Shown here piece after piece: positions 4,524-49,166 of a stretch of DNA of 64,000 nt. Position 1 is the first letter of the stretch. Each line of letters opens with the position of its first letter. Source of the stretch: Nautilus pompilius (lineage: Eukaryota; Mollusca; Cephalopoda; Nautilida; Nautilidae); assembly GCA_018389105.1 (NCBI GenBank), contig JACATO010000933.1:186001-250000 (forward strand). The letters run 5' to 3'. The notes beneath the pieces are model-generated. The model was not told the origin of the DNA. It saw only the letters and a list, made by a program, of their open reading frames with translations, and did not search any database. A program made the translations under genes and the position numbers.

Positions 4524-4775
4524 TCATACAAATGAAGAGAACCCTGCCACCGGTGCTCTTGATCCCGCAGTATTGTTCATCATCATGTGGCCTGCATTTA
4601 GACTCATAGCATACTGGTTGCTGTCAGCATCCTCGCTGTCTGCATAACAATAAGCACCGCCGGCTGGCTGACTCTGACGTTTCCAAGATTCGCGCACTGA
4701 GTCATTGATGAACTGGTTATGAAAAGCCTGCTGAGGTTCCTTCTCACTTCCAACTTCACTCTCATCTTCGCTGGG
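4524..4775 (-). CDS. sdk: sdk terminal exon: tail end with PDZ ligand GFSSFV
   Basis: Acceptor AATATTATAG| in phase 0, then 83 codons and a TGA stop at 4526-4524. The peptide runs PSEDESEVGSEKEPQQAF, then SVRESWKRQSQ, and ends SRAPVAGFSSFV. The terminal hexapeptide GFSSFV is the conserved class I PDZ ligand of Sidekick proteins, known to bind MAGI-type scaffolds in vertebrates. This ending is the single strongest identifier of the gene. Confidence 0.97.
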   Translation of the reverse strand, partial: PSEDESEVGSEKEPQQAFHNQFINDSVRESWKRQSQPAGGAYCYADSEDADSNQYAMSLNAGHMMMNNTAGSRAPVAGFSSFV

Positions 4776-13700: not shown

Positions 13701-16700
13701 TGGACTTATAGGCCAGAAAATATGGTAATTTTAATCAGGTAGGTACATTTTGTGAAGCCAAGAAAATTGTCCGACTATTTGTGAATGTAGAAATAGTTTT
13801 GTTTTTTTTTATTAGGAAAAAGCTAAGCTACAAAAAAGAACAAAATCAGACTTACGCTTTGTTGTGGTTTTCCTTCCAATTAGACACAGCAATAAAATTA
13901 CAGCTAATATAACAATAAATCCACTTAAGGCAATAATAACTAAAAACCACCATTTAGTGTGAAAAGGTCCAGCTTTGGATACCAATCCTTTATCTGTAGA
14001 TTTATTACCTAGAAGAAAAAAAAATTATAAAAAAAAAATTAACTATATATTTTGAATTGAATCATTCTTAAAGTTTTATGAAATATCTTTATCGAAATAG
14101 TATTTTTTATTTTAAGCAGCTACTTAGAAATTTTTTTCTACATTTGCTTGTTTGAAAACCTTAGTACAAATTTTTCATTTAAACTATTTTTATCCAAATA
14201 ATGACAAATGTAAACAATTTCTATGATAGTATCTATTGTTTAGGCTTCTGCCACCATCCTGATAATAAAACTAGTTGATAAATCTTCATTTCAGCTATAA
14301 TTTCCATAATCAAAATTCTTAGTGTGCAAATGTAGGTTTTGGTTCTACATGCATCTAACATTTTTACAATGATGCAGGCTGGTCTCAAATGACCAACCCA
14401 TCACTACCTGTCTAGCTTTTCGAGCTGCTCCTGCCTAACTAGAAGTGACTTTTTCAGGATATTTAAACTTTCCTGGTGTCAGTTCCAAAGATGTGCTGCT
14501 GCTGCTTAGTGGAGTATCTTTTTTGTTTTAAATACTGAGAGTAGTTATTATCAGGATCCCCTCCTGCCTACTTTTTCTGCTGAGTGAACTAAAGCCAGTA
14601 TTTAAACCAGCGACTTTCTCTACGTTCTCAACCAATTTCTACAAAAAGCACAATTTATGTTACAAAACAGCCACAGTTCTAAACTTAAAAGATCTGCCTT
14701 ATATCTATAACCAGGATAAACTTTGTTAATAACAACAACAAGCTGGTGGAAAAGGATCTGTATGTATGTGTATGAAATCATTATTCAGACCTGAAATATT
14801 TTAAAAAATTCAAAAGGTATTGTATTTAGAAAAGGAAAAAAAAAATTACAATATTTACCACCCCGATGATCTAATGCCGTTATTCTGATTGCTTTAGAGG
14901 GTTCACTAAATTCACCAATTCCAATTTTGTTAATGGCAGCAACTCTGAACACATAAAAAGAACCTGTCTGAAAACTATGAAGATTTATCAGTATGCCAGG
15001 TTGCTTGGACTCTTTTTGTAGAATGGTTTGCCAGTGATCTTTTTCAGCTAGTCATAAAAAAAAACAATCAGAAAACAGTTAATTTAAAGATATTACAACC
15101 ATAAAATTTATAGTTTGAAATATTTAAAGCACAATATCACAAAAACTTTCAGAATTCATGCTATAAAATGTGCAAAAAGAAAAAAAAATAGCAAAGATAA
15201 GATTAAATAAAAGATGAATTTAAAATCAAATTATCTTGCTTAGTGTACCTTTCTCTAACTTTCTTCAATTTCTCAGACGTACACAGAAAAACAGATTTTC
15301 TGACATTTTTGAGATCACCTTTAACATAGTAATACAAACTTTTAAGAAGAAATAACTATTTTTGGATAAAACATGTTTATGCAGTGATTCACAATTAAAA
15401 CAACAGAAAATAAGCAGAAAAAGTTAGATGAAACACATGCAATGCTCCCAACTCAGATAAACAAATACTGCAAAACCAGAACATGCCTACTAATTTCATT
15501 TTTTTTTTTTTTGTGGTATTTTGTTGGATTGTTAGTGCCCTAACAGATTTTTCATAGGTTGAGAATGAATTGAAGTATTGTTGTATTCAGCTGTAGGTGT
15601 TTTTGTTGCTATTCTGTTTTTGGTGACAAAAAAAATCTAACTCCTCCACAGTTCCCACCTCTTTTTTTTTTTTTTTTTTTTTTTAAATATTTGCTTGTAG
15701 GTAACCAAAACCAGTATCAGCATTCTACTAATGTTGATCATCTATGAGACTATTTAAAACTCAGGTTTTAGTATGTTTTTGCATTGCATGTGCTTATTAA
15801 TTACTATATTTATAAATTGTTTCCTTTTTTTTTTTGTTAAACAAAAAACTTTTGTTTCCAAAATATTTCATTTGTAGTTTTAAGTACTATAGTTCCTTTA
15901 TCTTTGAAACTTATCTTAGAATAGTAATAGAAAAACATATCCAATGACATATTTTTAGCCATTTAGTGCTATCAATAGAATGTTATACAACTACTTCAAA
16001 GTGTTACGATGCAAGACATGGTGGCATACACACGAAAATGCTAAGAAAACAAGGTCAGTGCCATAATGTTGTCAGGTACCATAAGAAAAGCAATGTTGGA
16101 TTGTGTATAAATTATCCTTTAAGTAGATATTAATGTTGAAAAATGTTAAATTTTAAATAATGTCACAATAGATTAATAAAGACACTCTAAAACTACTTTA
16201 AATCATCAAGACAGAGCAAAATCTGACATTTTGCTCCAAAGTGGCAAATTCTTGCTCAGAATTTCCACTACCTCACGTGAAAACCTCTAGCATCAGTGTC
16301 TCATGCAAATGAGTTTTTGAATGATGGACTGAACCAAATCATCCCATTCCTCTGTGTGCATTACCAAGTTCTTGCAAAGTTCACGGCAGCACATTAAAAG
16401 TGATAGTGTGTTTCTAAATTGTCCATGTTCAGGTGCTTTCAGAGGCAGAAATGTGTGGAAATTGTGCTAGCATCCATTTGAAGCCAACACCATCACCGAA
16501 AAAAAAAAGGGCCAAAACAAGCAGAGAAAATATTCAATCTTACTTTCAATGTTGATTTGAACTAATCTTTCAGAAGAACTAGAAACTAAAAGAACAAAAT
16601 GGTCAAATCTCTACAACTTCCGGAAAAAACACAGTAAAGACCACAGAGAAACCAGGCAGAAAATTTTAAAAAATGGTGAGAGTGGAAGGTGGCCACTGAA

Positions 16701-19700
16701 AAGCAGATGAAAGTGATAGAAGCAATGGCCAGAGAGAGCTGATGGTGTGTGTCATGAAAAATTAACAGCCATGAATTTATTTGAAAATATGCTCAATAAA
16801 AAATAGAAAAACAAAACACTGCTATAGCATCCAAGTAGTGCAAAAGACATGCATTGATGAGAGGAGTCAAAAAAAATAATGCTCAATTCTACAACATAAG
16901 AACAAAGGTACAAGCATACACTGAATATTAAAGTGTAGTATGACAAAAGCTAAAATAAAATCAACAATGTAAAGAAAAGACAAAAAATAAGGGGTCATAG
17001 CCAGGAAAAGAGAGGATACTTTAACCAGTGGGAACCAACTGATTATTTCAAAGACATTAATTCCATAGAAGCAAATGAAAGTTTACAATTTACAACAATA
17101 TTCACAGAACAATTCCTTTGAACATAACCCAATACCTAATTTCAAAAAAAGCCCTTTCTAAAAGTAAGTCTTCTAGAAGTAGAATTTTTATATTGTATAA
17201 TAACATCATCAAGAATGTGCTATAGAGTCAGATAGAAGTTTAATAAATGCCCTGAAAATTAATTACACCAGACAATGGACTAACTGGAATTCTGTGATAA
17301 TTAAAAACAAAATTATTTTTAAGTAATTTAAACAAGCTACCCTCCAAAAATATTTTAAGTCATTAAAAGATTTAAGTAAATTTTCATGCCATGGTTTTCA
17401 AAGATAGATAAATAGATGTACTTTGAAAATACCTTAGCAATACCAAACAGAGAGAATGAATCAAAACAAATTAGTGTTTTAGCCTTTTCAACACCATATA
17501 CATATTATGTAGGCAATAAGACAGACAAACTCACCCAGGATTATATTTAATTTCTTCTTATTTTTTTAAAATTCAATGTTAGTAGCATGTTGATAGTGAA
17601 AAAGTTATTAAAATTTACAACAGATGAATGGTTTGCCAAAAGACAACATGAATGTGAATAATTCCTTATAATATTTTTATAGTGTGGTTTTAAGAAAAAG
17701 ACAACATTTTGTCCAGTGCAAAACTTAACTAATACGAAACTGACCTCTTCTGGCAAGCCATGTTTCTTGACTTCTGCGATCCCTATGAGCATCTGGAGAA
17801 GTTACGTAAAAACTAAGATTAAAGCAAAACATGCAATATGTAGCAGAGATTAATAAGCAGAAAATAATTATTGATTCATTTACACAATCTCAGTGTTTCT
17901 AATTTCTTCATTTCCAAAATGCTCATTTCCAAATTTAACATTTCTTTAATTTAAAACTCAAAAGCAAAGCATACCATATATAAATACTGTGGCATGCTTT
18001 TAGAATTTTTTTTTGCTGAGATTTGCAAAAGCCTCTGATAAGTTGGGAACATTGGTGCTACTTATTTAAAAGACAGCAAATGCAAACAGAAACAGGACAT
18101 TAGAAACGCACATCTTGTGATTATCAAAAATGTTGAAATATTTAACCAGTCATCCTGGGACTCAAAACTGAAAGAGCTTAAACCAATTCATTAAGGCATA
18201 AGCAAATACAGATCATATATTTAATAATATTTTATAAAAATAAAACTAATAAATAATTTATTTTCTTTAAACAAATAAAAAAACAAAACAAAAAGTAGTT
18301 AAGTTAAAATATTTCTCTTTAAATTCCACTCTCCAAAAATAGATAAAAGTTGAACTTCTTCAGTATTCAGGCTACTGTTACAGATATTACAAATCAATAT
18401 TAAATATAAAATGCAAGCAAGTTTATCCAAAATAAATAAAGCATGGAAGTTTCCAATCAAAAATGATTTCAGATATTGGCTTTTTTTATTTTTTTAAAAT
18501 TTTTACGTTCATTAGAACTTTAAGATAATATACACTATTTTCCTATCTGTAGGCTATTCTTAAGGCATGCCAACTATTCTCAAGGTCCCCCCTTCATTAC
18601 ACATTTCATAAACTTCTTTTAGCATTTTTAATGAGCTCTTTTCTGATGTCTCACATCACAAGTGTGGCAGAACAAATTTGACCAGATGTGCACATTTAAA
18701 CAACCAGTTAGAATAGCATTATTACATTAGTAAAAACAACAACAACAACAATTCTCTGGAATAAATGAAAAGCTCCAATTCGTAACAAATCCATGCTCAA
18801 TATTTACTTGACAAAAACATTATACAACCCTGACAAGATTCTGAACTGTAGTAAACAAAAGCACATTTGCCATCAAGTTTGTGTAGTTTTACCAGAAGTT
18901 TAAAGCATCTTTATTCTAAAGAAATGTAGATATATAAGATTCATATGCCCTTCATTTTGCACAGACAAAAATTAACTTGGATAAGACACACAAACTATTA
19001 ATATGTATCTAATAAGCGTTCCTTCTAACATACTTTTCAGAGATTATTTCAAATCAACACACAAAAATTAATATTTGGTATTTTTTTTATGCTTTTATAA
19101 GTGCACTTTTGTTTATTAAAAACTCTCAACAAAAATTATTAAACTAAGCTCTGTGTGTATTATCCACACATTCATAAGCAAGAATATAACAATGTTCAAT
19201 TCAATATAAGCATTCCTTTTTCTTAGTTGATTTGTGCAGTAATATGATTTTAGAATATTGAGATTTAGCAAGTTATGATAGATTACAGGTTCTAAATAGA
19301 TCAGAAAAGTTGTTTCGATAATAACCACATTACTTACCACAATCACACATTACAGATCGCTTGCTCTTGCCACCTAAAATTAAAGACACAAAATCTGCTG
19401 AAATCCCTGCATAGGCCAATTCAAACAATGTGAAGTAAAATAACAGCTAAAAAGGTACCAAACTTTGCAGACCAGAACTTTTATTACTGTTTATAGTAAA
19501 TGTCAGCTACATTTTCATAAATATTTTTTTTTCCTTTTCTAAATCATTTTTCTGTCAACAGCTTCAAATTGACAAACAAGAATTAGTTGGAAATGAGAAG
19601 ATAAAATTACACAAAGAAAAAAACATCAGATTTTCTTTCATGTTAACTAAAAACAAAAATGTTGCAGCAGTGAAACATTTTCACAATGGAGTGAAACCGT

Positions 19701-22700
19701 GAGAGAGCTCTGACTATTTCTCATACTCTGAGACTTCATGAATTTGGCACATTTAAATTTTGCATTCACAAGGAGTGGGTATTGTCACATGACAACAATT
19801 GCCTGTGGCATGTAGACACCACACAGAAAACTGGGTTGAAGATATTTAAAATGAAAAATGCAGGTTCTTGATCTTGTTATAGGGCCTGGAACTTAAATCC
19901 AACAGGCGCCACTAAAACATTCTGGAGCCTGTCACTGCTCATTTTGACAATTACCTGCTTGCTGCTACTAGACCATTATTTGTGGATAGTAATGCCAAAT
20001 TTATCATGCAGCTGCAATGATGCAGTATCTCCAGAGCAGTCTGATCAGGTTCCTTGCTTTCCCTGCCATGAGCTGGGATCTGCAATCATCAGAGCATCTT
20101 TCAGATCAAATCAAGTGTAGTTTTGACGAGGAGGAATCCTGCTCAGAATACTGCTTAACTGGCACAGGCTTTACAGCAGAGAATACCATATAATTATTTG
20201 ACATCTTATGAGCCGTATAAACAGAAAGTGTAAAGAAATATCTGTACAAGGGTATATAACATAACAACAACATTAAATTATCACAAACAAGCTTCCAGGC
20301 ATAAAGTGGAACTTACCTTGAAAAATACACACTTTTCAATAACCATTTAACAAAGTACAGTGGAACCTCGGTTCACGAATGCTTCTGAGTACGAACAAAT
20401 TGGGTTACAACCAAAAATTTCATCAAAATTTTGCCTCTGTTCACGAACTCCATCTTGGGGTACGACCAGAGTCCCGGGGTCCCAAGCCTCCACTATCAGC
20501 TAAACAAAGGTACGAGCGTGTTGCCCAGGGTAGTGAACCGTTGACAAATGCACCATGGACCAATCAAAATTGACTATTCTTAGAGACGCTGTTTGTAAAA
20601 ATTCAGTAATGTTTGCGCATAAATTGGTGTTAATGGGGTTTTTCAGACGTTTATCTTTAAGAAAACAATGTCCTTTCTGCCTTTCATCATATAATTGATA
20701 AGTTAGTTGCATAATTGAGTTTTAAGCATTTTTGAAAGAACTTCTTTAAATTCTGCCAAACAGTTTATTTTTTGATAAGATGAAACAGAAAATTACACTT
20801 ATAACCTGTTTACTTAATGATGGGCTTTCCTATTCTTTAACATGTGAGTGTATGTGAATGAATTACACCAAAATAAAAGTTAGCCACAACTTAGGGACTG
20901 TTCTTTCCATCAATTTCATTGGTCCATGGTGTAACATTCATTTGCCAATAGAATATCGCCGTTGCCCAGCATTACATCTCACATGAGTGCATCACTCTCA
21001 CCTAGTCCTCCATCCCGAGCAGACATACGCGCAGCAGTTGTAACCAATGTTGTGGCATTTTCACATTATTTCTATAATTTACAGTAATAATAATAATTCC
21101 AGCATGCCCCTAAGAAAATGAAGAGCGATAGTGGTGTTGAGAAGGTGGTGGTGAAGAAAATAACCATAGAAGTGAAGAAAGAAATTATTTAGAAGCATGA
21201 ACGTGGTGTTTGTGTGTTGGATCTCGCGTCCGAATACAAAATGGCCAAGTCGACGATCTCAACAATTTTGAAAAATAAAGAGGCCATCAAAGCAGCTAAA
21301 ACAGCAAAAGGAGCAAGTGTGCTAACTAAGCAAAGGTCTCAAGTGTTAGAGGAAGTTGAAAAACTTTTATTAATGTGGATTAATGAAAAGCAGCTTGCTG
21401 GTGATAGCGTGAGTGAGGCAATAATTTGTGAAAAGGCAAAACAGTTACACAGTGATTTGCTGCAGAAAACCTCCAGTACGAGTGCTGAAAGTGAAGATTT
21501 CAAAGCGAGTAGGGGTGGTTTGAGAAATTCTGAAAGAGAAGTGGCATTCATAGTGTAATAAAGTATGGTGAGGCTGCGAGTTCAGACGAGGCAGCTGCGG
21601 ATGCGTTCGCGAAAGAGTTTGGCAAATTCGTGGATGCCGAAGGTTATCTTCCAAATCAAGTTTTTAACTGTGATGAAACAGGCTTGTTTTGGAAGAAGAT
21701 GCCGAAGAGGATGTACATCACCCAGGAGAAGGCATTACCAGGGCACAAGCCAATGAAGGACAGGCTCATCCTTTTGTTGTGCGCGAATGTGCGTGGGGAT
21801 TTCAAAGTGAAGCTGCTGCTTGTCTATCACTCTGAAAACCCGCAAATATTCAAAAAGAACAATGTTATGAAGAGTAAACTGCCTGTATTGTGGAGAGCGA
21901 ACACGAAGGCTTGGGAGTGACAAGGCTCCTCTTCATGGAATGGCTGCAAGAAGTGTTCACACCAAGCGTGGAACAATATCTGCAGGAGAAGAATCTGCCC
22001 CTTAAGTGCCTCCTGGTCATGGACAATGCCCCGACACACCCACCAGGCTTGGAGGATGAGTTGGATGTCAAGTTCGATTTTATCAAGGTCAAGTTCCTGC
22101 CCCCACAACACGACTCCTCTCCTGCAGCCCATGGGCAATCAAGTGATGGCAAATTTTAAGAAACTGTACACGAAGGCGCTCTTCACATGGTGCTTTCAGG
22201 TTACAAACAACACCGATCTGACCCCGAGAGAATTTTGGAAAGATCACTTCAATATCCTCCACTGCATAAACCTCACTGATAAAGCCTGGAACAACGTCAC
22301 TTACTGGAACTTGAGAGCAGCCTGGAAGAAACTGTGGCCAGATTGTGTCCCTGAAAGGGATTTTGAAGGCTTTGAGACTGAGGATGTAGCAGTAGTGGAG
22401 GATATCATGTCCATGGGCAAGAGCATGTATGTCGACTTTTTGGATGTGGAGGAGCTGGTTGACAGTCATAAGGATGAACTCACGACCGACAAACTCAATC
22501 AGCCTTCAGAGTGAGCAGTGGAAGGCCTTGGTGGAGGAACAGTTGTCCGAGGAAGGAGGAGACAGGGAGGAAGCTACCAGCGAAATGATAAGAGACATTT
22601 GCACTAAGTGGGGTGAAGTGCAAGCCTTTGCCGAAAAGTTTCATTCAAACAAAAAAAAAAAGAGTGGCGAACAGAGCACTAAACATCATGAACGACAATG

Positions 22701-25700
22701 TGATGTCATATTTTAGGACGATTCTACAGCGCAGAAAGAAACAAATATTGCTGGATAGATTTTTTATTAAAATGGGTTCCAAGGACGAACCAGAGGCCAA
22801 GAGAGCAAAATGAGAGAAAACCCCTGAAGGAGAGTTATCCAGTGTTATTATGGAAGAGGGCTCATCTTCAAAACAGTAACTTCCTCTCATAATCTTCCTC
22901 TCTTCCATTCCTTCACGCCAGCAAGTCTCCCTAAGAAAGATACGTGAGCAATACGCCATGTAAAAATTAAGTGTTCTCTCTCTTCTGTGCTGTTTTTTTC
23001 ATATTTAGTATTAAATTTAGTATTATTTTCGTATATTTAAGGCTTTTTTATATTTTGTTTCATATTTTTTACTATAAAAAACCTGAAAAAAAAAATTACA
23101 TAGGTTTCGGTGGGGTCAGGAACAGATTAATTCTATTTCAATACAACCTTATGGAAAAAATTGACTCGACCTACGACCAAATCGGTTTACAAACAGAATT
23201 CAGGAATGAATTAAGTTCGTGAACCGAGGTTCCACTGTACTGTATAATACAAAATATAAACAAGAGTCATCTAAATTCTACTCCTTTCTAAACTAGCAGT
23301 ACTCTGTCACATCAGGTCACTTTTAGTCAAAAATACATTTTAGATTATATAGTAGTTCTGGAGGAAATTTATAAAAATATCTGGCAGTGCTTAACTCATG
23401 CTAACACATTGTGATTATACTAATGTTTTGTAGTGATACCAAAATTTCTTGGTTTTATTTAATATTTTTAATCTGTAAGCATTTTAGCAAGTATTTTACA
23501 TAATAGTACATTTTATTTTCAGTTTTACTTTTTTTGGCAATCGCCTTGACATTTTTTTCCTGAACCAACATTTTTAAAAAGCTTCAACCTTTAATCGAAT
23601 TTTGCTTTCCATGTGCGCTAAACGGCATCTTTCATTTTGGCATTAATTGGACAATCTGATAAATAAGACGTCTGTAGCAAGTACCCCGTTAGACTAATTT
23701 GACGACTGAGATAATGAACCATTTAAAACAACTCACTCCTATCTATTTTCTAAACTATTTAGGTATAACAAAAGGTTATTTACTTTTCTACAATTTCTAA
23801 ATTAAGTTTTTATTCAAATTTTTTTAAATGCTTTACTAATTTCTGCATAACCAATGGCTGCTTTATTCTTATCAATTATATAATTTTAAAAATCGAAGAT
23901 ATTTGTTAAGAAACTGAGTTTTCCAAATCAAAATTGTAAATTTATTAAAATATTTTAATAAGATTTATAACCCATTTTTAATAACAATGAATGCTTTTGT
24001 ACAAAGTTTCTGAAGTCTAGTTTAACATCTCAAGTCTTTTATTTTAAAGAAACCTCGTCATTTTCAATTTCCAACAATTATTAAAATATTATCATTAGAT
24101 ACCATTGTAAATTATTTTATTTTCTGTCTATCTAGATGATGATGATGATGTCCCAAGTTATTCCTCTACCTTCTCAAAGTAATACCTGATTTTTTAAAAA
24201 TACAAAACATTTTTCCTAAAAGTTTTTGTATACTTTCGCCATTTACAGTCTCTATCTTGCATCACACACCAGTCTCAACAATGGATGACGACAACCCTAG
24301 GGAGAGGCCTTGCACTTCCAACTTTGGCAAGAAAATCCTTACTAGAACCCTTCATTTTTAGATGTGGAGAGAAAGAGAAAAACCCTCATGACCAGTTCAC
24401 AAGGAAGAGGAAGAAACCATGCCAGGGAGGTATGCCAACCAAACTGACTCTGACCAAGGACCAAATAAGAGTCTTCAGTCTTGGCAGTCCAGTCCATGGC
24501 TACCCAGCTGTTTTTGATATATAAAACCTGCCATTTTCACATAATCTTTCCAAATCAAAAGAGGACAAAGATAACAGCAGCCAATCTATCTCTTTGCTTG
24601 TTGCTAGTCACAAAAAATAATTTGGGGTCTAATAAATCTGTTTGTAATTAACTGAACACTATGCATAGTAGGATACAAAATGAAAGCAAATATAGTGAAA
24701 AACCCAAACTGTAAGTAGACAGCTGCTGTCCTCAAAACTTCAAATAGTTTTTGTAAACAGTAAGGCAGATTCAAAAATAATGGCTTCAGTTTTAAAGCGT
24801 CACACTTACTATTTTTTCTGGCTTGTAGACAGTAACTATTTATAGGATAGGCACCTTCATCAGCATTTGTCCAAGATATGTTAACACCGCGAATGGTCAT
24901 CTGAACATTCAGTTTTGAAACCTTCTCTGGTGAACCTGTAAATTTTCAGGCAAACAATTAACCACATCAATCTTTAAAAAATTACCAACCAATCAATGTA
25001 CCAATCACTAACAGAAATTTAGATCTATTATCTATGAGGATAAATAAATTACTTTCTACCTTTTTTTGTTTGTTTGTTTGTTTAAGAATAATCAGCAACT
25101 TCGAAAATTAAAAACGCTAAAGTATCCAATCCAATTTTTATTTCCAGTATCAGAAAATTATAATAGGCATTTAAAATCATAACTAAAGAAAATCAAATAA
25201 TAAAAGCAATTTTTAAATAAAGTCTGCAAAACTAAAATACTATTTAACAATGAGCAGAACTTTTGCATACATAATAGATCTTTAAAAAAATATTTTCTGT
25301 TGTTAATACGTAAACTAGTTTTCTTTCCAGTCTATAATGCAGTCAAGTGCATGTGTGTACCTGGCTGTGGTCCTGTAGTTACATTTCCTGCTTTCTCTTG
25401 ACCTAGACCAGCAGATGTTTTTGCCCTGACTTTGAATATGTATTGTGTGTTTTCTTCCAAATCTTTTGCATGGTAATATAACTGATTTCCATTGACAGTA
25501 AGCTGAACAAGCTTACTTTCACCTGTTTGGAAAAAAAAAATCATTAAGTGAAAAAGAGTTTTTTTTAAAATAGTAGTTTTGTCATTATATTTTGCTTTAT
25601 TAAAGAAAAACAATACAAACTAGTTTGTGAACATTGCACATACTTTTGAACACTATTTAATGTCTTTATGGTTCAATACCAAATAGAAAAAATAATTTTT

Positions 25701-28700
25701 TTTCTTACTTTTGTGTTATCTACTACAAAGGAAAGTAGCAGACAGAGTTAATAACAAAATTTAAATATAATCAAAACATAATAAGAGAAAACGTTTTCTT
25801 TTTAAAAAAAAATATTTTAACTTCAAAACATGGATAAACAATTACAACTAAAAACATTAAAACAAACAAAAACTCACCATCATTTGCATGCACCTCATAA
25901 TATGTTATTTCATAAGATAATATGAGACCATTAGTCTTCACAGGAGGGCTCCAGCTCATATTCAAAGACTCTAGCATTATCCATAAGAACATAAGTGATC
26001 TTGGTTTTCCGGGTGCTGTTAACACATTAAGCAGGGAAACAATTTTAATAATTTTCTCATAATTTTGAAGATTCTTGTTATATCAAAAAATAAATACTTT
26101 TGAATGAAAAAAAAAATCGATCTATATTTTAACAGCGCAAGTCATAATTCCAAAATAAACAAGAGTATATCTGCCTACTTCAATTCTGCATACTGTTATT
26201 CCTGATAGAAAAAAGGAAAAGGCTCTAAAATACATCACAAAAATGCTATAAATTAAAGATAATAAAATATTGATAAAATATGTACATGCAACTATTTTAA
26301 CATAAACAAGCATACACTACCTGCCATATTTATTTGGAAAACCAAAATAAATTAATGCATCTGACTGAAATGTACATACGTCAGATGTGATTAGGTATAT
26401 ATTGTGGTGGGCAGATAACCAGTATACATTATTTTCACCATGCTGAAAACAAGTAGATTCCCTGACATTTCTTCATTTATCTGAGTTCCTGTTATAAGCC
26501 TTTTGGAGTATGGCTAAAGTCAGTGACAGATTGCCAATGATCTCAACATTTCTTGTGGATTTGTGATCAGTATTAGTGTCAAATACAGAGATGAATGGTG
26601 TTGCTGTGGCAAAGTTAACCAGGAAAGCTTGCGTACAGAGATATCATGGGATCTACCTGTTTTCAGCATGGTGAAAGTGCACACCCAATCAGCTGTCCAA
26701 TATATAAACAAACCCCACACACCTAAAATATTTAAATTTCAGTTAGATACACTCATTTATTTGGGTAGCCAGATTAGTAATGGCAGGCACTGTGTCTGTC
26801 AGAGAGAGAGAGAGAGCATGAAAACAAATTGCATGTCATATTTTAATAACATAAGATGCCATTACTTGCTACATCAGAACTCAGTCAAGATTATCCTGCT
26901 GACATTGCCCCTCAAAATGAGCCAAAGAATAGTCTAATATTGTCATCACCAACTTGGCTACAGATGGTGTAGAACGTAAGCAACTTATTGTTCAACAGGA
27001 ATAAAATGATTTTAAAAATCTGGTCAGAGGGTGTGTTTGGCAAGATATCAGAGTGTTGTGTGTGCTTGCTTCTCTGATGCATTCAGGTTTCAGCAAATGA
27101 CAGAGGCCACACTTGGGTTTGTAGAAGGCCTAACAAAGACCTTCAAATCCAATCTCTTTTTCCCATGGTCAAGTATGGAGGTGGGAGTGTTATGATATTA
27201 TGAATTGACATCCTGAAGACAATATTGATATTTGTTGAAGGACATCTCAATTCTGCTGGGTACATTGCCATTTTTAAAGACATATTCAACAAATGTGATA
27301 CAAGGAATACTAAAATTAGATGCCCATATTCTTCAGGAGGATGGTGCTACATGCTACCTCTTATAGGTGACTAAAGTTGGAAAAGGAATCAACTCATTCA
27401 GCTTCTTCCCTGGGTACCTGGAAGCCTTGATATAAATCTGATGAACACCAGGAGCAAATTGATCAACAGCTGAGAGCAACCTTGAACAGACTGTCTTGTG
27501 ATGCAAAATTAATTTGAATCAATGCTAAATAGGATATAGTCTTTTTATGCAGCAAAAGGTGACACAATTATCATACAAGTTTATAGTTCATGGAGGAAGA
27601 GCAACATGTCTTCCTAGAACAGCCTGAACATCCTCAAAGAATTTAAGTCAAGAGAATGTGCATGACATATCACATGAGTAATAGTTTCATCTCGAAGATA
27701 TGAGTCAATTACATGTGCTCTATTTTGACAAATACTACTAAAATAAAGTTATCTCCAAATGCATGGTCTGACATAGGGATCCAGAACCACATCCTTATAT
27801 CTTAATAAATTCACAGTACTTCCATGAAACAAGTGCAGGATATGCCCCTCAAAGACATTCCAGCCCAGACCATTACTGTAGTGATTTCATTCTATGTTTG
27901 TGTTCCATATTCCCTCCAGCACCTTGAAATGATCTTGAAACAATGCCTACATGCATTTGAAATTATATTGGTAGCTGAGACATCCCACTTCAGTTCACAT
28001 CTAGCCCTTCAACCAGCTGAGTCTGGTTCTGTCTGGGCTCTATCCTACCAACAGCTCTCGAATCTGCCAAACAACTGTGACTACCTATTTGAACATTGCC
28101 CACTCAAAAAATATCCCAAAGAGAGCCAAAATTAATATAAACTCAATTTTTTTTTTTTTTTACATGTCTGTATACCAAAGCTAATTTACATGTTTCTTTG
28201 ATCAAAGTTGTGCTTCATGAAGAGAAGTTTGTGTAAAAGATTTTGCGAAAAAATTGAAACCATTTTGGAAATTTTTTTGTTCAATGTTAACCTTTAAAAA
28301 CTGGTCAAACAAAAGTCAGAGTAAACCGGCAATAAATACAAGGCAAAAAATCCTGGGAAAAAATTCTATACATGTATAAATGTTATGGAAAAGAAACAAC
28401 ATGACAGATTTACCATCAACCAAATAAAAAAACAACATGAATCAAAGAAATCCCAAAGATTCTAGACACTCACAATAACAATAAATGCCCACTATACCAA
28501 TCCTGATCAAGGATTTCTGTGAGCCAGCAAATACCCCACCCCAACCAGCCCAAAAGAATGAAAAGTACACATGGTCATAGATCTAACACTAAGGTTGGTA
28601 ATCCAAAATTTGCAAAGTCTCATGAATTAACTTGGGTTGACACAAAATTAATGCAGGAAAAAATGTAAACAAAATTCCCTCCCGTCACAAAACTGTAATC

Positions 28701-31700
28701 AAACCTGAGGTCAAGAGGTCATGACTTCAAAACTTAAATGACCAAAACAATAGAATTTTAAAAAAACCAAGGCATGAACAAAAGGTTCAGGGATCAGCAC
28801 AAATGTAGAACACTGCTCTCTGTGCTTAAATACAATTTAAGAATGTCTGCATCAGGTAATAAATTTTAAATGCACAAACTGTGTTATATGCCACATAGAA
28901 ACTACAATAAGGAAAAACTATCACAAGCATGACAATTCAAACTAAGAGGAGCAAAATATGACCTGATTAATTACCACAATAATCTTTAATTAAATAGAAC
29001 AGTAAATTTGATAAAAGCCATTTGTGACATACATACATGATATGAAGAATACCAAAATTTTATAATCTCCAATAAAAGTATCATAATATTTAATCATATT
29101 GTATCTTTCTTTAAGCAAACACCTAGAATTTAAAATGCAACAATTATAAATCTAATAGAAATGAACTACCAATACCAGAAACCCTTAATTCAATAATTCA
29201 ATGACAACAGGTATTACTACAAGATTTGCAGTATTATTAGTTTTTTTATGAAAGTTTAAAATTGTGAAGTTTTTTAAAAAGCTATTTATTGGTAGTTTGG
29301 CTGTCTCAGATGTCATGGCCTTAACCCTGCTTCTGTGAAGTTGGCTATTTGGATGAGAAAGGGTAATTTGTCCAAGGCAAACAAGTACATCCTGTTTTTA
29401 GGCATCCATGCTGAGTGTCCTAATTAGGAATAACCTGAGTGCCTGAATCCAGTATCAGCCCAAGAAAAGGTGGACTAAACAAGCCACCACCACCCGTCCT
29501 TTATCTTGTTTGCAAATTAAATTTTCATTGTTGGAATGTGACTTTAATCTCAAGTTTTGATTCAAAGTTATATTTTGATAATTCAAGGTAAACTGCTTGT
29601 GTATTAAATACAGTGCTACATGGCAGCAGAACAGACTACCTATAGTCATCATGAGAAACTATTAAATAGTTTTCTATTTTTGCAATAGTGTGGGCATGTC
29701 TGCAGCATGCCAAATGGGTGAATCCCTAATGATGTCTATTATGATGAAATGCTTGCAAGTGGAGGAGGATATACATTCAATGTCTACTACATAAAAAAAA
29801 ATTGAATATGAAGCAGGATGTAGGAAAAAATTGGCATAATCAACAAATATTAGCTGATAGGTAACACTCCAACCTTCCCTTGCCCCAATTGCGGAAAGAT
29901 GTCTAGTTCAAGACCTAACTTGTATTCTCATCAAAACTGAAAGAAATATGACCATTTTCATTGATTAATTACCCATCAGATAGCAAATAGCCATTTTAGT
30001 TTGTAGAAAATCAGTGATTTTTATTTTCTTTTGTATTTAAGACACTTAATCTTACTGAAATCTTAAAGCATTTGTGGGGACATTGAATTTTTCAGGAGAA
30101 CTCTTTCTAGGCTTATTTCTGTGAACTTGCACATCCTTCTTGTTCGCCATCGCCTACAATTTTCTAATCACCACAAAACTATTAATGACAAATGATACAG
30201 CAGCAGACAAAGTTTCTTAAAACCTTTCTACAAGTCATCATCCAGCAACATGTATGAGATAGCACAGACCAATGCCATGGTACAGAGGGTGTCATTTCTG
30301 GTTTTGTATTTCCTTGATAATCACAAAATAGTTATTTTCATCATGATGGTAGATGATATTTTAATATATGGCAATGCTAACTACTTGAAATAAAGATTTC
30401 TAAAAATGTTTTTGATAAAAACTTATTTAAATTATTAGTAAAAGTGTTTAGTATGTATTAAAAAAGAGCAGTTTCTATGGTTACACTAAATAATTATCAA
30501 ATATTTTACAAATTCACCAATAAGTATCTGATTAGTTACAATTTTTTTTAATAAGGAGAAACTGAGTTTTAAAAATTTTAAAAATAGAAAACATTCATAA
30601 CAAACAAAATAAAGAATTCATTCTGGATACCATATTTCCAAGCAATCTGAATAAAAATGACATTATTAAGAATATTATACAGAATAAAATCTCTACTAAT
30701 TCGAGGATTAAAATGCTGGTTAACTCACCCTGACCACAATGAAACAATAATACTTTAACATTTTCAAGAATTTAATAGGGAAAAAATAAAAAGTGCGTGG
30801 AACAGTTTAAAATCAACAAAATTAGAATATAAATATGCATAACTTATAGAGAGTTCTGCACATCTACAACCTCTTTCCCACTTTACCTCCTTCCAGTGTA
30901 CTGATGTTACATTCCTGGCTTCTGGGTCCTTCTCCAGCAAGATTAAATGCAAGTACCGACACAGCATAATTTGAATACACTTCAAGGCCTTCTAGAATAA
31001 TGTGCATCTCTTGAGCAATAACTTCGTGGTTTTGATTTTTGGAAATAAGTCTATAATAGACCTGAAACACATTAAAGTACCATTTGCAGAATTATACAAA
31101 CACATACCACATTCCACCAAAAACAAAATACAGTGGGTTTGGAGGATGCTATCAAATAAGATAGTAATTCTAAGAATGCAAACTTTTTCAACTTTAATTT
31201 GATTTTCACTTAATTGAAATTAAAAAAAAAAAAACTATGAAGAAATTTAATATTAAATCCTTAAAATAAAATCAACAGAAAATAGATGAAGTTGGCAGAC
31301 AATCTATTATTATTACCTCATCTCAGTAATAACATTTAATGCAGCTTTACATTCAGTATGTGAAGAATAAACTGTCTATAAAAACATGTCAAATTCTCCT
31401 ACTTTGTATCCTGAGAGTTCTCCATTTTGTGTCTTAGTGGGTGGTGGGAGCCACTGTACAATTACTTTTGTTGAGTTCAGAGCCACTGCAGTCAAGTTCT
31501 GAGGTGATGCTGTAGGTGCTGAAACAAGAGAGCTATCCAAATGAAATACCTTTGAAATCTAAATAGCTTTAAATTATGTTTGCATATTGCTTTTTCTTTT
31601 TAATTAAGAAATAATATTAATAATTAACTTAATTTTTTATTTTCTTTTGTTTAGTTGATTGTTCAATTAATTTTGTGGGTTATCATCTAATCAGGTAGCA

Positions 31701-34700
31701 GATAAAGTTGTTAAGAAATTTGAGTTTTTTCCCCATCTCCCAGCACTAAAAATAACAAAGGTAAAATTTAACAAATAAGTAAAATTTGAATACCTGTGAT
31801 AATTAACACATGCATCAGAATTACTTAAATATATATATATATATATATAGAAAGACTAATCTCAAACAAAAACATGACCAAAAAAAAAGAAAAAAGTTAC
31901 ATCTGTAATACTGAATTAAAATATACAAATACAACATTCATATCATACTTACGAGCTTCACCAACAAAAATGATGACAGGTTTACTACTGGGACCTGATC
32001 CAATATCATTGAAGGCAATCACTCTAAACTCGTAATTCACAAAACTGGTTAAGTTGCCCAGCCATAGTGTGTTTGTTGAATAATTCACTTGAGTTTTTTG
32101 ATAATTGGCCATGTTTGTCTGCCGGTATTGTACAATAAAACCTTTCAGAGGTCCATTCCACGTTGGTTTGGAAGGTTCCTATAAAAATAAATACATATTT
32201 ACAGAAATTTGTGTAAGTGTTGAAATATAAATTCAATGCTAAATTCTTTATATTAAAGAAAAACATCACCAAATGACTAGATTCATTTAACATTATCCAG
32301 TTTACAAAACATACATCAATAAATATTAATCCAAATAATCTTATACTTAATATAATATTAATATTTACAGAGCACTTTTCCACCTACCTTCCAAAATAAC
32401 ATTTCCCACAACTCTTTGCAAACAACCTATTATCTATATTCTTCAATGAGATATAGTTAATCAGTGCTCTTTTTTAAGGCTTATAGCATACAATATTAAT
32501 ATGACATGGGAGTTTAATTTAGAACAAATTTTGGGAAAAAACAGCAAGAAAAGGATTTTCAGTATTAAAAATGTTTCTGAAATTAATTACCTGCCAAGTA
32601 AGATTTACTGAATTGGTTGTCAGAGGAACTACCCGAACATTTTTTGGAGCACCCTCTGGTTCTGAAAAATATGTAATGTACATGACTTTAGAAAAAAGAA
32701 CTAACTCTTATAAAAAAATGTATACATATACCTGATAAATTTCCTCAAATTGTTATTTAAAGCAATAAACAGTAAACAATAATAAATTCCTAAAACTCTT
32801 AAGAAATCTCTGTAAAATAGATTTCGTTATTTTATCCTATAGACCATTTTGAATATGGATCATCTAGCACTAAGAATACATATTTACAATGTGGTCCACA
32901 ATTAAAGTCATTTTTAATACACTGCCAAATGGGTCAACCTCATTATCTAAAATAACAAAATAAAGATAATTACATTTTGTGTGGGTAAAAATTATTTACA
33001 ATTTGTTAAACATTTTGATCTACCAAACAATTCCTGGATTCTCATCATGCATCAATATTATATACCTGTATTGTTTTACTAAAATCAACCGAATTCATAT
33101 CAACAGTCGATGGACTTCAATCTAAAATAACCAATTTTGGCCAACCATTTTAGAGTAAAAATTATTGTCAATGTAAAATAGGAAGAATCAGTGTGGCTTT
33201 TCTTCAGATGTAAAGACAATTACCATGTTTAAAATATAGGATTCCTTTGTTTAATTAATGCATTTTCAAAGACTTTAAAAGCAACCACAAAAGCACATTA
33301 GTACTGCCATTAAATATAAGACTTGCCTGATTGCACACCACATTTTGACTCCTTTTTATTTTAACTAAGGACCTACTGCTATATTATAATGTGTGTAAAC
33401 AACAAAACCTAATTCTTTAGGCTTCTTCTTACTAATACTTTTCTACTCTTCAGATTAGCATACAGAGTATCCAATGAAAGCCATTTGCATGAACTAACTG
33501 CTTCCTCAGAAATCATTGAGCAGCCGTACACTTTGGCACCATTTTGTTTAGTCTATTATTAGACATTACTAAATATGAAGATCTCTGTGCTGATGACATG
33601 ACTATTTGGAACTCTACTCAAAATGTTGAAGATATCATTTACTTTTTTTTTTTGCATTGATTTTTGAAAATTTCAATAACTATCAACAAGGTGGTTATAT
33701 CACTCTTCACATTTGACAACCTCAAGGTAAATTACCAGTCAAAAGTCTGTATTAATAAAAACAACTTCATTTAGATAGAAACCCAAAATTTCTTGAAATG
33801 TCAGACCAACAACTGACCTTCAATACCCATTTTCTCACAAGCAGCAGACAAATCATGGAGAGCAACTCTAACATCATTACGAATCCTATATCATTTTTAC
33901 CTCAAACCAACCATTGGCTACAGAGGGAAAGTCTAAAATGCCTCACATCTAAAAAAAATTAAGCTAAACCTTCAAAATATTTTTAAAAAAATCTTGCAGC
34001 AAGGCTTATGGAACCATAAAATCCTCCAAAAAAAAAAGTAACAAGGGAAGCATGTTTACCTCCTCTCCAAAATCAGACGATAAACTGCTACCTATTATGA
34101 AAGAATCTACCATCAACTCAGTGAAGATCCAATACAACAGATAATTAAAAGATTCATGAAGTTGTATAAAGGGATCAAACAAAAAGAAAAGTAATCAAAG
34201 ACCAAATTACAGAAACATTCATAACCATTATTTCCATAGAGCAGAAGAAAGCCTCCATCATAATCTGCAAACCTAATAATTAATAATCTAATTGCCCCAT
34301 GCTGCAAAAACAAAACAAACAAACAATCCAAATGTACTCAAGGCACTGGCCACTAAAGTGCTGGATAACCTACCACAAGTACCATATTACCACAGTTATA
34401 ACGGAAATAGACTTTTTTGTCTTAAGCGAGACCAATTTTTTGTAGTGGAGCAACCAATGCCAAAGACTTGGGCTCTGTCACCCAATATATGGTATTTGCA
34501 TAAAATTCAGCTTTTCAGACATGGCCTCTCTTGATAATGTTGAGTTGATCAAGTCAATTTCTGAGTGTGAGAGTGGCTCTGATGATGAGATCGTTCCTGT
34601 TGAAGGTGGTGAAGCTTTCAGTGATGGATCAGATAACGAAGAGGAAAATGTATTGTTAAAAGTGTTTTTGTCTGCTTTGTAAATTATACTGAGCTGTACT

Positions 34701-37700
34701 AACTTGATTTTTGTGCTATTGCTGAAAATTAACTTATTTTTTTTTTACATTCTGCCCCATACCTCACTTATAATGGCATGCTTCTATAAGTGAGGTGTTA
34801 GGGTAGTGTGGATATCAGCTGAGCTCCAAAGTTTTCATCAAATTCCAAATTGCTATGGTAGAACATCATTTTCTAGCAGAAATTACATCTAACTGAAAAG
34901 TGGAGATTATTGCCTGTTTAAGGCAATATAAATTCTGATATAAAAACTTACCAGAAATTCTGTCACATCGATATAGAGCATTGGAAATAATTATAGGAAC
35001 AGATGAAAAATTGGGAATAAAATGCAAATAAAATGTGATAGAATTGCACATAAAATAAAATGCTCCATAGTACATTCATGTTGTTGTTGTACACTGATTG
35101 GTTGTTTGACAACCAGTCAGAAAGTGTCACCTGCAGAAGAACTATAAAAGTATAGGCAGTAGTGTGGTGAATACTATGGCTCTTGGGAAGGAAATACCAC
35201 ATGACAAGCATATAGAAATAAAAGTCTTAGCTAGTGAAGGCTACTTAATACAGCAGATTATGCCTTACGTTTCAGGAGGAGCTGTATGTGTGGCTCTGAG
35301 GATACACAAAACTGGTGCTGTTGACAAAAGATGCAGTTGGAGAAGAAAGCCCAAACTCAATGTATGCTAACAGACAACAAATCAGTAGAGATCTTGCAAA
35401 TGGCCTAGCTGCAAGTACAGATATTAATGTTTCTTCAAGAACAGTAAGATAGACATTGGCGCAAAGTAGTCTTAGTGAACGCGTAGCTGAACGAAGACCT
35501 TTACTAAAGAGGAAACCAAACAACAAGGTTGAAACAAACAACAAAATGAAACAGTGGGATGACCAAATCTGGAAGGTGGTGGTGCTCTTTACAGATGAGT
35601 CAAAGTTTGAACTGTTTGGTGATAATCAACAGCCATTTGTTCAAAGGCAAACCATGGAGCAGAATAACAGTCAGTATACAAAAACTACAGAGAAGCATGG
35701 AGGTAAATCAATTCAAGTTTGGAGCTGCCTATCAAACAAGAGTATTAGAGATTTGCATAAAATCAAAGATTTACTGACAGGTATGCGCAGGTTCTCATTC
35801 CCTCAGGAAGACATCTCAATGGATGAGGATTCATCTTCCAAAATAACAATGACTTCAGGCATGCAATCTGTGTGGTGAAAATATTTGGAACGTAAAGAGG
35901 CTGTGCACTCTGTAACCAAACACCTGGGATGTTTTGTGGAAAGTGCTACAGGATATTTAAAACAACATTGCACAGTCATACAACAATAACCTGTATAGGA
36001 ACATGAAAACAGTGTCATGCCCTACAAAAAAACAAAAGGCTCACATGCCAAATACCAATGCACAGTAAAATGTATTCATTTTGTTTTGTATTTTTTCTGT
36101 AATACAGTTGCAATTACTCATTATTTGCACATGCGCTTGTTTCCATAATTATTTCAAATATATACACTGACATAAATCACTTTAGCATCTACAATCAGAT
36201 AAGTCTTCCAAATGTACCTCAGACAATGAAGGAATCTAGGCTGAAATTAACCACCTAACCCTACAGAGAGTACCATGTCAGGAAGGATAACACATGTCCA
36301 AAGAGTTTATATAGATTTCCCAGCAGCAAAGTTAGCATGCTGCCAAACAAATAAGAAATTGAAATCCTGAAATACAGCTAAAGCAAACAATCACCACAAT
36401 TCTGATCCATTGATAAACTGCCAAAACACTAAATGGCAATAACCAGAATGAGGCTTCACCACACCTTCCCTCCATGGATTTTACGCCAAGATCAACAAAA
36501 GTATATCTCAAGAATGTGAAGACACTGAAGTTGTGGAACATTAATTACTGACCATACAAACCTTGATACATCTGAAGAGATGGAAAAAAAAGTTTGTTAT
36601 ATCCATGGTTTACAGTAAACAAAGAAGAAATCTGCCACCACCTCCAATGCATACAGCCCAAATGCAACAGCTGATTTAAAAAATAAAGACATGCATAACT
36701 TTCTCTAAAAAGATCAACATTAACTGAAGATGAAAGTAAAGTGGCTAAGGGTTTCCTCTCCAGTTTTAAAATTGTATGTATGTATAGGATTTAAAACAAA
36801 TTTGATGGAAAAAAAACCTCAATGTTGAGTAAAGGTTTCATAAACAAAGTTAGCAGCAGCATTTCTAACAATCTTGTCCTGAGATACTGTGTCTTGCACA
36901 TTATAAAGCATATGTATGTACAGTACTGCAGTCAACATGAGATTTCCACTAATTACAAAATCACAAATCTGAAAATGACCCTTGTTAACAAAAATACAAC
37001 AATTTAAAACCAATGCTTCCAATCCAAAAAAATTAAATTTCTTTCAGTTCAACAGCAGGATCCACTTCTACAGATAAGGCAATTTGGTGATCTTTCACTG
37101 ATTTAAAGATACATGGCTGACTGCTTTGATGAAGATAGGGCCAAACTACAGTTCTCACCAGTATTTCAAATGGCCCACCAGCTGCCCTGTAGCAATGTGT
37201 TAGTGCCACTGTTTAGTGGTAGAACAGACTCCACCAGGCAATGATTTTGATGACAAAACCTAAGGCATTAAACAGCCATAACATAGCAGCATGATTGTGT
37301 GCGGGATATTTTTTAAATCTTGAAATTATTTGATGGTCAGTGAGAGATCCCAGCGGAATGAAGTGGGAAGAAATGTCATAAAATGTCATGTACAAGACTG
37401 ATACATAATGTTGATCCTCATGGCTAACTAGCAGCATTCCATAACCATTTTATTCCAGGTGGTGATTTGCATTCATGACTTTTGTGAAAAGATGAGTCCC
37501 TCAACAAAAGAAAAGCAGACAGTGGATGAAGAAGTCAGAGTAGTGTGAGATGCCACTATAATTCCAAGCTTACAGATTTTTGCAGTAAGCATCAGCTAAT
37601 GAAAAAACTAGAGCTCAGGAACCTTTGATTCAGTGGTATTTATTGGTACTGGATGATAGCATAGGCATCCCTGACAGAGCTCACAGAGCAACGCTGCATG

Positions 37701-40700
37701 TCTTCACATCAAAATAGACAAGACTTTAAAATTCTTGTCCCATAGAGATGCTGGTACAGTAAATCTTATTATTTATTCTTACCTGAGACAAGGAAAGAGA
37801 ACAAAAAATAGGTTTAAATCCTCATACTTTATATTTTTCCATGTCCAAGTAATTGTATGCCATCAATTTTAAAAAAATTTAATTGAAATAAACTACTTGT
37901 ATATAATCCATTTTTTAATATTAAATACAGCTCCTTTCCTCAGTCCAATATGGCCCACAGGCTGAAATGTTTGCCCACTCCTGCTCTAGAGCAATGAAAT
38001 TATGTCTGTCAATATTCTCAAAGCTTTGTAAAATGGTACAAATATCCCTGAAACTCTCAAAAGCCTCACTAGCAATCAGTACTCTGGTTCTCTCATCAGT
38101 TTTCTCTCCTTTAGTGACTTCTATCAGCAAAGATTTGTAGTCTTTTATTTTAGCTGCAACTTCAAACTCTGTAATTTCACCTATTGTAGTAGGCAAATCC
38201 TCATCAGCAGTGACAGTAGTCCATGAATGACATGCCACTGTTAACAAGCAATGGTGTTAGACGATGCAGGGTTATTTGCATAAGCACTCTCATCAGTAAC
38301 GTTTTTGTAGTCTTGTTTATACAATTTTTTTCCATTTTGAAGCAGTGTGCAACCATCTCCCTCAAGTCATGCCAAACATAATGAAGCATATCTAGGACAT
38401 CTTTAAAAATTATTCTAGTCTCCGTTGCAGTGCCAATGTTAGCCATCAGGTGTTTGAGGTGGCAATAACAATAAAACACCTTGCTTTCATTGGCTATAGT
38501 TTGTGTTAGGCAGGAAAAATTTCACTATCATGACTTTCAGAGTTAGATTGTTGAGAGAGCTTGTTATTGAAAATAAGCAAAACCTTCTGTGACAGCCAGT
38601 ATTGTGATCAAAATTTATCCTTCACTTGTTGAATAGAATGGTATGTATCCAAGCTTTAGGTTAAGCATAGTACAAACCCAGAATGGAGAGACCTTAGAAC
38701 ATTACGTTTCTAAACTTTTCAATGACAGACAGTTTGCACTTTTCCCTTCCATCCATGTTAGAAAAGAACAAAACTGTTACCCTTTACTTTATTTCACTCT
38801 GTTCCATAACAGTCACTTGTTTTTATTAGTAGTCATTTTGAAGCAGCAGCTTCATCTATTCATAAATCACATTGGGCAAGTTGTTCTTCCAATTGTCAAC
38901 TGTTTCCAATAAAGCTGATCCACCCTAACCAAAGCAGCCTCGAGCATGATTTAATGGCAGGGTCTAAAATGATCAAGCCAACCAGTGACTTGCTCTAACT
39001 TGTTCAAATCATTTAAAAAGTGCAACTTCTACTTTTAGATGCTTCGTTCTGATACTCTCTTTGCCTATTTATACTCCCCCAGATTTTGCCACACTTGTGG
39101 ATTATAGTGTAAATTGTCACCTTGGCTAAATTGTCTGGAAAAAATAAAACTGAATGTTTCATTGTTGCAGTAATCTTTAATCATCTCAGCCTTTACTACA
39201 ATGGATATGTTTTCTTGCTTGCTCACCATCACGCTATAAATGATGTGGAAAGCACAGTAGGATCAAAACTTTAAAAGTTTGCTTCAGCAATGAGGATCAA
39301 TTGTATACCCAAAACTAAATTGAATTCAACAGAACTTTTGCCACGAAAACCATCTAAAATCTATGCAACTACAATCCAAGCACAACTGGGAACTATATGA
39401 AAAATATTCCAAAATGAAGGCTTCTGACCTGCTATTGATGAGATGTGATCTTAATCAGCAACCAACTTTGCTGACAAGAGTTTCCATGAATATTTTCTGA
39501 ATTCATCTCATCAAACAATAATATTAAAATACCGCATACACACACAAACTAAAATTCAATGGTATATAATAGCTTAGTCTCTTTTTACAGAATTTCAATT
39601 TTACAGGGTGGGCCACAAAAATGTGACAAGTTTTGATAGACCACCAATTTTTTTTTATATTTCTAATGACAGAAATGAACAAGATACACTAAGAAGCCAA
39701 AAAGTTTTATTTTGTTATAATGTTTAGACTGTCCTTCTGCATTGTGTGAACATGCATGAAGCCTGATGGCAAAGTTTTAATTTGTTACCCAAAGAGTTTT
39801 ACATAAAACAGTTGAAATCACTTAGTTTCACTGTCTTTTAGTTTGAGAGTCATCGACAGTCTCAGTTTGACAAAATTAACAGATTTTTCCATTTCCAAAA
39901 TGGCAATTTTCTTTGTTGACCATCCAATGGAAGAGGCACATGGGGTACTTCACTGAAAATAATATTATTAAGGCTTATCTTGCTATGGTCATACATGTCA
40001 CTAATTCAAAGGCAAAATCCAGTGCAACTGTGCTTGTCACTGCTTGTCAAATGTTGCAGTAGTTCAAAATATCTTAATATCACATTTTAACAGGCATCTC
40101 ACACTTGTTTATGACACACCATTTCATGAGTCATGTGTCATGTTTAGTTCCTTGGGATATGAATAATTGCATCCTGGATAAATTGGACATTCTATAGAGT
40201 TCAAATATCTTGTGGATAGCCTGTGTGCTCGACATTTAAATTTCCTATGCTTTCACTAGCCAGAGCGCTATGTCCATAGAAAGTAGTTCTGAAAGCACAC
40301 TGGATGCTTGTTACAGATCACAACTCCAAATCAGTTGCAATATTTTTCATCAGCAAAAATAACAAGTGAAAAATATATTAGTTTTTTTCTAAAAAATAAA
40401 CTTTATCATACATTTCTATCACTTACAGTAAGAATTTTACATTTGTCACAATTTTTGTGGCCCACCTGTATCACATTACAAACAAATATAAGTTTCTTAT
40501 CTGTTGTTTGATTGGTTGGTTTTACTTTGCTCTACTAATACTTAAACAAAATCCTAAGTTAAAATTATTGCATTTGAAAGTATATACTATGCAAGCCAGA
40601 CAATAGTATTGCCTTATAATCTTAGTATTTAATCTGAAATCTAAAATATTTCATATTTAACATGCACATATTTCATTCATAATCAGTAAAGGTTATCACC

Positions 40701-49124: not shown

Positions 49125-49166
<42 letters not shown>

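Follow-up and report, generated by a model that had tools for sequence, protein, structure and literature searches.

Within a 64,000-nucleotide stretch of the Nautilus pompilius genome (assembly GCA_018389105.1, contig JACATO010000933.1, positions 186,001 to 250,000; hereafter the window, to whose positions all coordinates refer), a Sidekick gene lies on the minus strand and extends from one immunoglobulin (Ig) domain to the C terminus (Table 1). We describe two short candidate exons, ME1 and ME2, in the intron that splits the last fibronectin type III (FN3) domain of this gene. If used, they could bring proprotein convertase sites into the domain nearest the membrane.

In the protein joined from the exons placed within the window, Pfam recognizes one I-set and 13 fn3 stretches. 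We take the single Ig domain to be the last of the six Sidekick Ig domains, with the others lying beyond the window end. The translation ends in the hexapeptide GFSSFV, which is given as the C terminus of all bilaterian Sidekicks (PMC7479261), and 18 of 20 C-terminal residues, counted by eye, are like those of the octopus entry in the same paper (MMVNNTAGSRTPVAGFSSFV), a resemblance that by itself points to a mollusc and perhaps to a cephalopod. The structure of a human sidekick-2 FN3 domain (1wfo) matches the FN3 8 region (E = 5.8e-23); over a longer query, multi-FN3 receptor phosphatases, titin, and contactins outscore 1wfo. Taken together, the 13 FN3 domains, the GFSSFV end, and the kinship to human sidekick-2 identify the gene, at the level of sequence, as Sidekick and the split domain as FN3 13, as the original prediction had named them. 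Scanning the window for tRNA genes gave no hits.

Table 1. Features of the window, with the basis for each
Feature	Position	Strand	Basis or remark
Upstream Sidekick exons, one Ig domain and FN3 1-12	25361..63563	-	Gene model; first-exon start uncertain
FN3 4 first half	~55033-54920	-	Located separately from the gene model
Sidekick exon, FN3 13 first half (strands A-C)	24810..24935	-	Gene model and Pfam fn3; phase 1 end after ...SYCLQARKN
Candidate microexon ME1, 36 nucleotides, SGKSKRSVMCDC	19338..19373	-	Splice sites, open frame, KSKR↓S, CxC pair
Candidate microexon ME2, 48 nucleotides, DAHRDRRSQETWLARR after ME1, NAHRDRR... if ME1 is skipped	17745..17792	-	Splice sites, open frame, RDRR↓S
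Sidekick exon, FN3 13 second half (strand C' to G)	14859..15047	-	Acceptor 4.9, donor 4.9
Sidekick exon, juxtamembrane stalk and transmembrane segment (KWWFLVIIALSGFIVILAVILLLCLIG)	13856..14008	-	Gene model
Sidekick last coding stretch, ending MMMNNTAGSRAPVAGFSSFV	4527..4775	-	Translation
DNA transposon remnant, presumably Tigger/pogo-like, inside the FN3 13 intron and outside the cassette	20354..23241	.	Perfect 26-bp inverted ends

Joined in phase 1, the halves of FN3 13 give ...SYCLQARKNTEKDHWQTI..., which Pfam recognizes as fn3 (E = 5.4e-9) and which aligns to titin FN3 domains with no long gap at the loop between strands C and C'. The direct join is thus the normal strand C to C' passage that had been proposed. 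Adding the inserts lowers the fn3 score of the domain, from 36.6 to 33.6 and then to 31.1 bits. As a stand-in for FN3 13, we ran AlphaFold2 on the neighboring uninterrupted FN3 8, using an alignment of four window domains. The model (mean predicted local distance difference test [pLDDT] score, 87.4) assigns residues 33-40 to strand C and residues 50-55 to strand C', and its lowest-confidence block falls between them. In an alignment to FN3 8, with residues placed by eye, the two FN3 13 halves meet about one residue past the end of strand C. On this model, the inserts would enter the C-C' loop of FN3 13 just after strand C and lengthen it by 12, 16, or 28 residues.

The introns that split FN3 1 (57683-58940) and FN3 12 (25523-25877) fall in about the same loop and share phase 1 with the FN3 13 intron, making this loop a recurrent intron site in the gene. 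On the sense strand of these two introns, the strict scan described below returned no candidate exons.

Splice sites and reading frames of ME1 and ME2

ME1 and ME2 lie between the donor of the first FN3 13 half at position 24810 (...AAAAATA↓gtaagt; arrows mark exon borders or putative cuts) and the acceptor of the second half at position 15047. ME1 is bordered as tttaattttag↓GTGGC...GATTGTG↓gtaagt and ME2 as acttctccag↓ATGCTC...AGAAGAG↓gtcagt. Each keeps phase 1 at both borders, and no stop arises in any of their four combinations. The coordinates, lengths, phases, and reading frames of the two exons and the flanking halves, together with the four in-frame isoforms, are therefore as originally predicted.

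Splice sites were scored with matrices based on the human consensus, and the scores are relative only. ME1 scored 6.7 at its acceptor and 9.8 at its donor, and ME2 scored 7.4 and 9.0, compared with medians of 6.1 and 6.5 for the 21 model exons, in agreement with the earlier description of both pairs of sites as good. Eight of the 21 model acceptors exceed that of ME1 and seven that of ME2, while four model donors exceed that of ME1 and five that of ME2. The flanking sites are weaker than those of the candidates, at 5.2 for the upstream donor and 4.9 for the downstream acceptor.

This difference fits an explanation in which both exons are always included, such that Sidekick here has a long cleavable C-C' loop like L1CAM and NrCAM. 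A 5′ site that outscores the upstream one is, in Drosophila, a mark of constitutive rather than alternative microexons, and 3′ sites behave similarly (PMC8042270). By this rule ME1 and ME2 look constitutive, which argues against their optional use. However, when its halves are joined directly, FN3 13 is an ordinary FN3 domain and its loop is normal, its fn3 score falls once the inserts are added, and the comparison of splice scores depends on a matrix whose scores are relative only. We consider constant inclusion very improbable.

Two other properties of the segments, their open frames and their G+C content, also speak against chance. ME1 is open in the fitting frame alone, and ME2 in the fitting frame and one other. 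Their G+C contents are 0.47 and 0.48, compared to 0.41 for exons and a mean of 0.31 for introns; among same-size intron windows outside the transposon, 6.3% reach the value of ME1 and 4.2% that of ME2. In vertebrates, TGC (UGC) motifs just upstream of an acceptor draw the neural microexon factor SRRM4. The 80 nucleotides upstream of ME2 contain four TGC triplets (about 3% of intron windows have at least four), and those upstream of ME1 contain one. In a search for a repeat origin of the inserts, the intron gave no other match within the window at E 1e-3 besides the transposon ends and one palindrome.

We compared ME1 and ME2 with candidates from 20 introns (45,403 bp), scanned on both strands; the first half of FN3 4 (roughly 100 nucleotides, above the 60-nucleotide limit) was outside the exon list. 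With cut-offs set at the candidates' own scores (acceptor at least 6.6, donor at least 8.9), this strict scan returned two candidates on the sense strand, ME1 and ME2 themselves, and one on the antisense strand. The same introns contain 1121 open AG...GT segments of 30-60 nucleotides (641 sense, 480 antisense), among which ME1 and ME2 rank second and third by summed splice score, the top one lying inside the transposon. The part of the FN3 13 intron outside the transposon (6,867 bp) holds three candidates whose summed scores reach 16.3, namely ME1, ME2, and one of 27 nucleotides. Because the other introns hold two such candidates in 71,282 bp of both strands, about 0.19 would be expected in this part. 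In 300 first-order Markov simulations of the intron, the mean number of candidates at this score was 0.11, and none of the 300 reached two. As the thresholds were set after ME1 and ME2 had been seen, these figures overstate the case and amount to moderate support rather than proof.

ME1 and ME2 might instead be pseudo-exons, chance splice-site matches in a long AT-rich intron, with neither used to any extent. Several observations fit this explanation and weigh against the use of the exons and against any function built on it. Looser cut-offs give about equal numbers on the sense and antisense strands (6 versus 5 and 14 versus 17). The transposon-borne candidate, with a score of 17.4, ranks above ME1 and ME2. 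So does the 27-nucleotide, frame-keeping candidate in the same intron (24296-24270), whose summed score is 18.2; it falls 0.05 short of the strict donor cut-off and would add about nine residues (RLSSSIVET; RLSSSIVETA with neighbors) without a basic motif. Since this last candidate outscores both, splice scores alone are moderate evidence. In addition, the ME2 donor has a C at position +3, which is uncommon in consensus donors, and several AGs lie close upstream of the ME1 acceptor. The pseudo-exon explanation is less easily reconciled with three candidates where 0.19 were expected and with the failure of every simulation to produce two, nor does it account for the exon-like G+C content of both segments or for frames that are open solely (ME1) or with one other (ME2) where they fit. 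We regard it as unlikely. ME1 and ME2 are probably both used as exons, and it is slightly more probable still that at least one of them is.

Convertase motifs in the C-C' loop

Proprotein convertases recognize the pattern [KR]x[KR]R, and furin the pattern Rx[KR]R. The peptide encoded by ME1 carries KSKR↓S, which fits the broad pattern. ME2, which reads D/NAHRDRRSQETWLARR, carries RDRR↓S and fits the full furin consensus. The original prediction had suggested that an insert here could create a cleavage site; a convertase motif is indeed present in each, and from this we infer that a cut may occur.

To judge the background of such motifs, we set aside the 16 of the 1121 open candidates that overlap ME1 or ME2. 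Among the other 1105, with overlapping segments counted separately, 14 carry the broad pattern and six the furin pattern. The 172 of these with a G+C content of at least 0.45 include three with the broad and three with the furin pattern, the 189 with a summed splice score of at least 4 include one of each, and the 50 whose summed score reaches 8 contain neither. When the 21 model exons were scanned singly, none contained Rx[KR]R, and the only [KR]x[KR]R was KFKR in the exon encoding the second half of FN3 7 (46162-46351). The same is true of the protein spanning FN3 5 to the membrane with both candidates skipped: KFKR is its sole broad motif, and Rx[KR]R is absent. A cut at the motifs in ME1 or ME2 would leave 88-104 residues outside the membrane.

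The same loop carries basic motifs in proteins of the L1 family. In alignments to PDB entries, L1CAM (8afo) reads ...YWREGSQRKHSKRHIHKDH at the C-C' loop and 1uen, listed as the KIAA0343 protein, reads ...YWKTQSSSKRNRRHIEK, while contactin-2 is six residues shorter there. We take KIAA0343 to be NrCAM and both 8afo and 1uen to be third FN3 domains. L1CAM and NrCAM, likewise large Ig/FN3 neural adhesion proteins, thus resemble Sidekick with the inserts: the C-C' loop of one of their FN3 domains has a basic motif (HSKR, KRNRR), and they are cut in that region, presumably exactly at these letters. They differ in that the motif is, as far as is known, constitutive in those genes and lies in the third FN3 domain of another family, whereas the Sidekick inserts fall in the membrane-proximal one. 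Both inserts would place a basic motif of this kind, the feature characteristic of convertase-cut FN3 domains, in the C-C' loop.

Cleavage of the L1 family members has been described. Furin cuts NrCAM in its third FN3 domain and both parts co-precipitate; the ectodomain is not shed by the furin cut itself but by ADAM10 (PMC6460357), such that release of an ectodomain is a further step. For L1CAM, PC5A, plasmin, and trypsin are reported to cut in the FN3 region, and a title cited in the same paper names plasmin-sensitive dibasic sequences in the third fibronectin-like domain (PMC7291284).

The explanation that we favor, with a probability of about one in three, is that optional use of ME1 and ME2 makes convertase cleavage of Sidekick near the membrane dependent on splicing. 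The two exons would lengthen the C-C' loop of FN3 13, each installing a basic convertase motif, and with either one present, the loop would be cut by furin or a related convertase during passage through the secretory pathway. A short membrane-anchored stub would then retain the large Ig/FN3 ectodomain non-covalently, as in NrCAM, and the ectodomain might be more easily released or remodeled. When both exons are skipped, FN3 13 would have no convertase site. Splicing would in this way determine whether Sidekick is present as an uncut adhesive protein or in processed form. Should the exons be used, we give convertase cleavage an even chance. We are slightly more doubtful of the wider proposal, in which two independent microexons would let a neuron choose by splicing between a single-chain ectodomain and a cut, releasable heterodimer.

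Real microexons need not be cleaved. A basic, cysteine-bearing insert in the C-C' loop could change how the last FN3 domain packs in cis, touches the membrane, or binds ligands without any cut, and the splice sites, frames, and loop anatomy fit this explanation too. According to a review, Sidekick FN3 domains run along membranes (PMC7479261), and another paper considers it likely that further FN3 or Ig contacts, beyond Ig1-4, help to form Sidekick cis clusters (PMC5045292). An alternative microexon of the fly gene, discussed below, also accords with loop variation (PMC8042270). What loop variation leaves unexplained is the presence of a convertase motif in both inserts, compared to 14 of 1105 candidates elsewhere, although the motif was picked after the inserts had been seen, which weakens this evidence. 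Cleavage is made less likely by two further considerations: purine-rich exon sequence also yields basic motifs, and KSKR has lysine at P4, which is weaker than arginine for furin. We view loop variants without cleavage as possible but somewhat doubtful.

Other neural receptors offer parallels. In LAR-type phosphatases, DCC, and NCAM, binding is modulated by short optional exons that fall within extracellular domains or between them, and their effects concern ligand binding or spacing rather than a convertase site. In the accessible literature on microexons and furin cleavage sites, a spliced linker of Gpr126 is reported to act on conformation.

Sidekick splicing in other species and further features of the window

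The closest precedent is in Drosophila, where sdk contains an alternatively spliced 24-nucleotide microexon (ME482) that was confirmed by reverse transcription PCR (RT-PCR) and is included more in males than in females (PMC8042270). Like ME1 and ME2, it is a short exon in the same gene family, alternatively spliced in the fly, with a length that is a multiple of three; it differs in being 24 rather than 36 or 48 nucleotides long, and the comparison covers gene family, length, and splicing. As the same paper defines microexons as at most 30 nucleotides, ME1 and ME2 would count there as short exons and are microexons in a looser sense only. Sidekick splice variants are also mentioned elsewhere, with their significance described as unclear and the role of the 13 FN3 domains as poorly understood (PMC7479261). 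The original prediction had known of no description of such a cassette in Sidekick; the fly microexon and the published variants qualify that statement. In the accessible portions of the open literature on Sidekick with microexons, splicing, and shedding, with subscription journals mostly outside, we found no account of a pair of microexons, or of a convertase site, in the last FN3 domain. A paper there that names SDK2 beside microexons does so in connection with chromatin peaks, and no paper on microexons in octopus came to light.

Release of a Sidekick ectodomain is not far-fetched, since mammalian SDK1 and SDK2 are among the putative BACE1 substrates identified by cell-culture proteomics (PMC2793532). 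If splicing does control a cut near the membrane, this choice would give the FN3 domains and the splice variants of Sidekick a testable role. It would also constitute a second route, besides the L1-family sites, by which convertases process a neural recognition protein. With a convertase motif in both inserts, at the loop used in the L1 family, the pair of microexons is more testable than was originally supposed.

The window also contains transposon-like sequences. Three plus-strand frames (34446-34679, 35453-35875, and 45132-45332), which gave no Pfam match at E 0.001 (one piece being a partial frame), resemble pieces of piggyBac and Tc1 transposases by eye. The remnant in the FN3 13 intron contains pieces of HTH_Tnp_Tc5 and DDE_1 on the plus strand, in broken frames.

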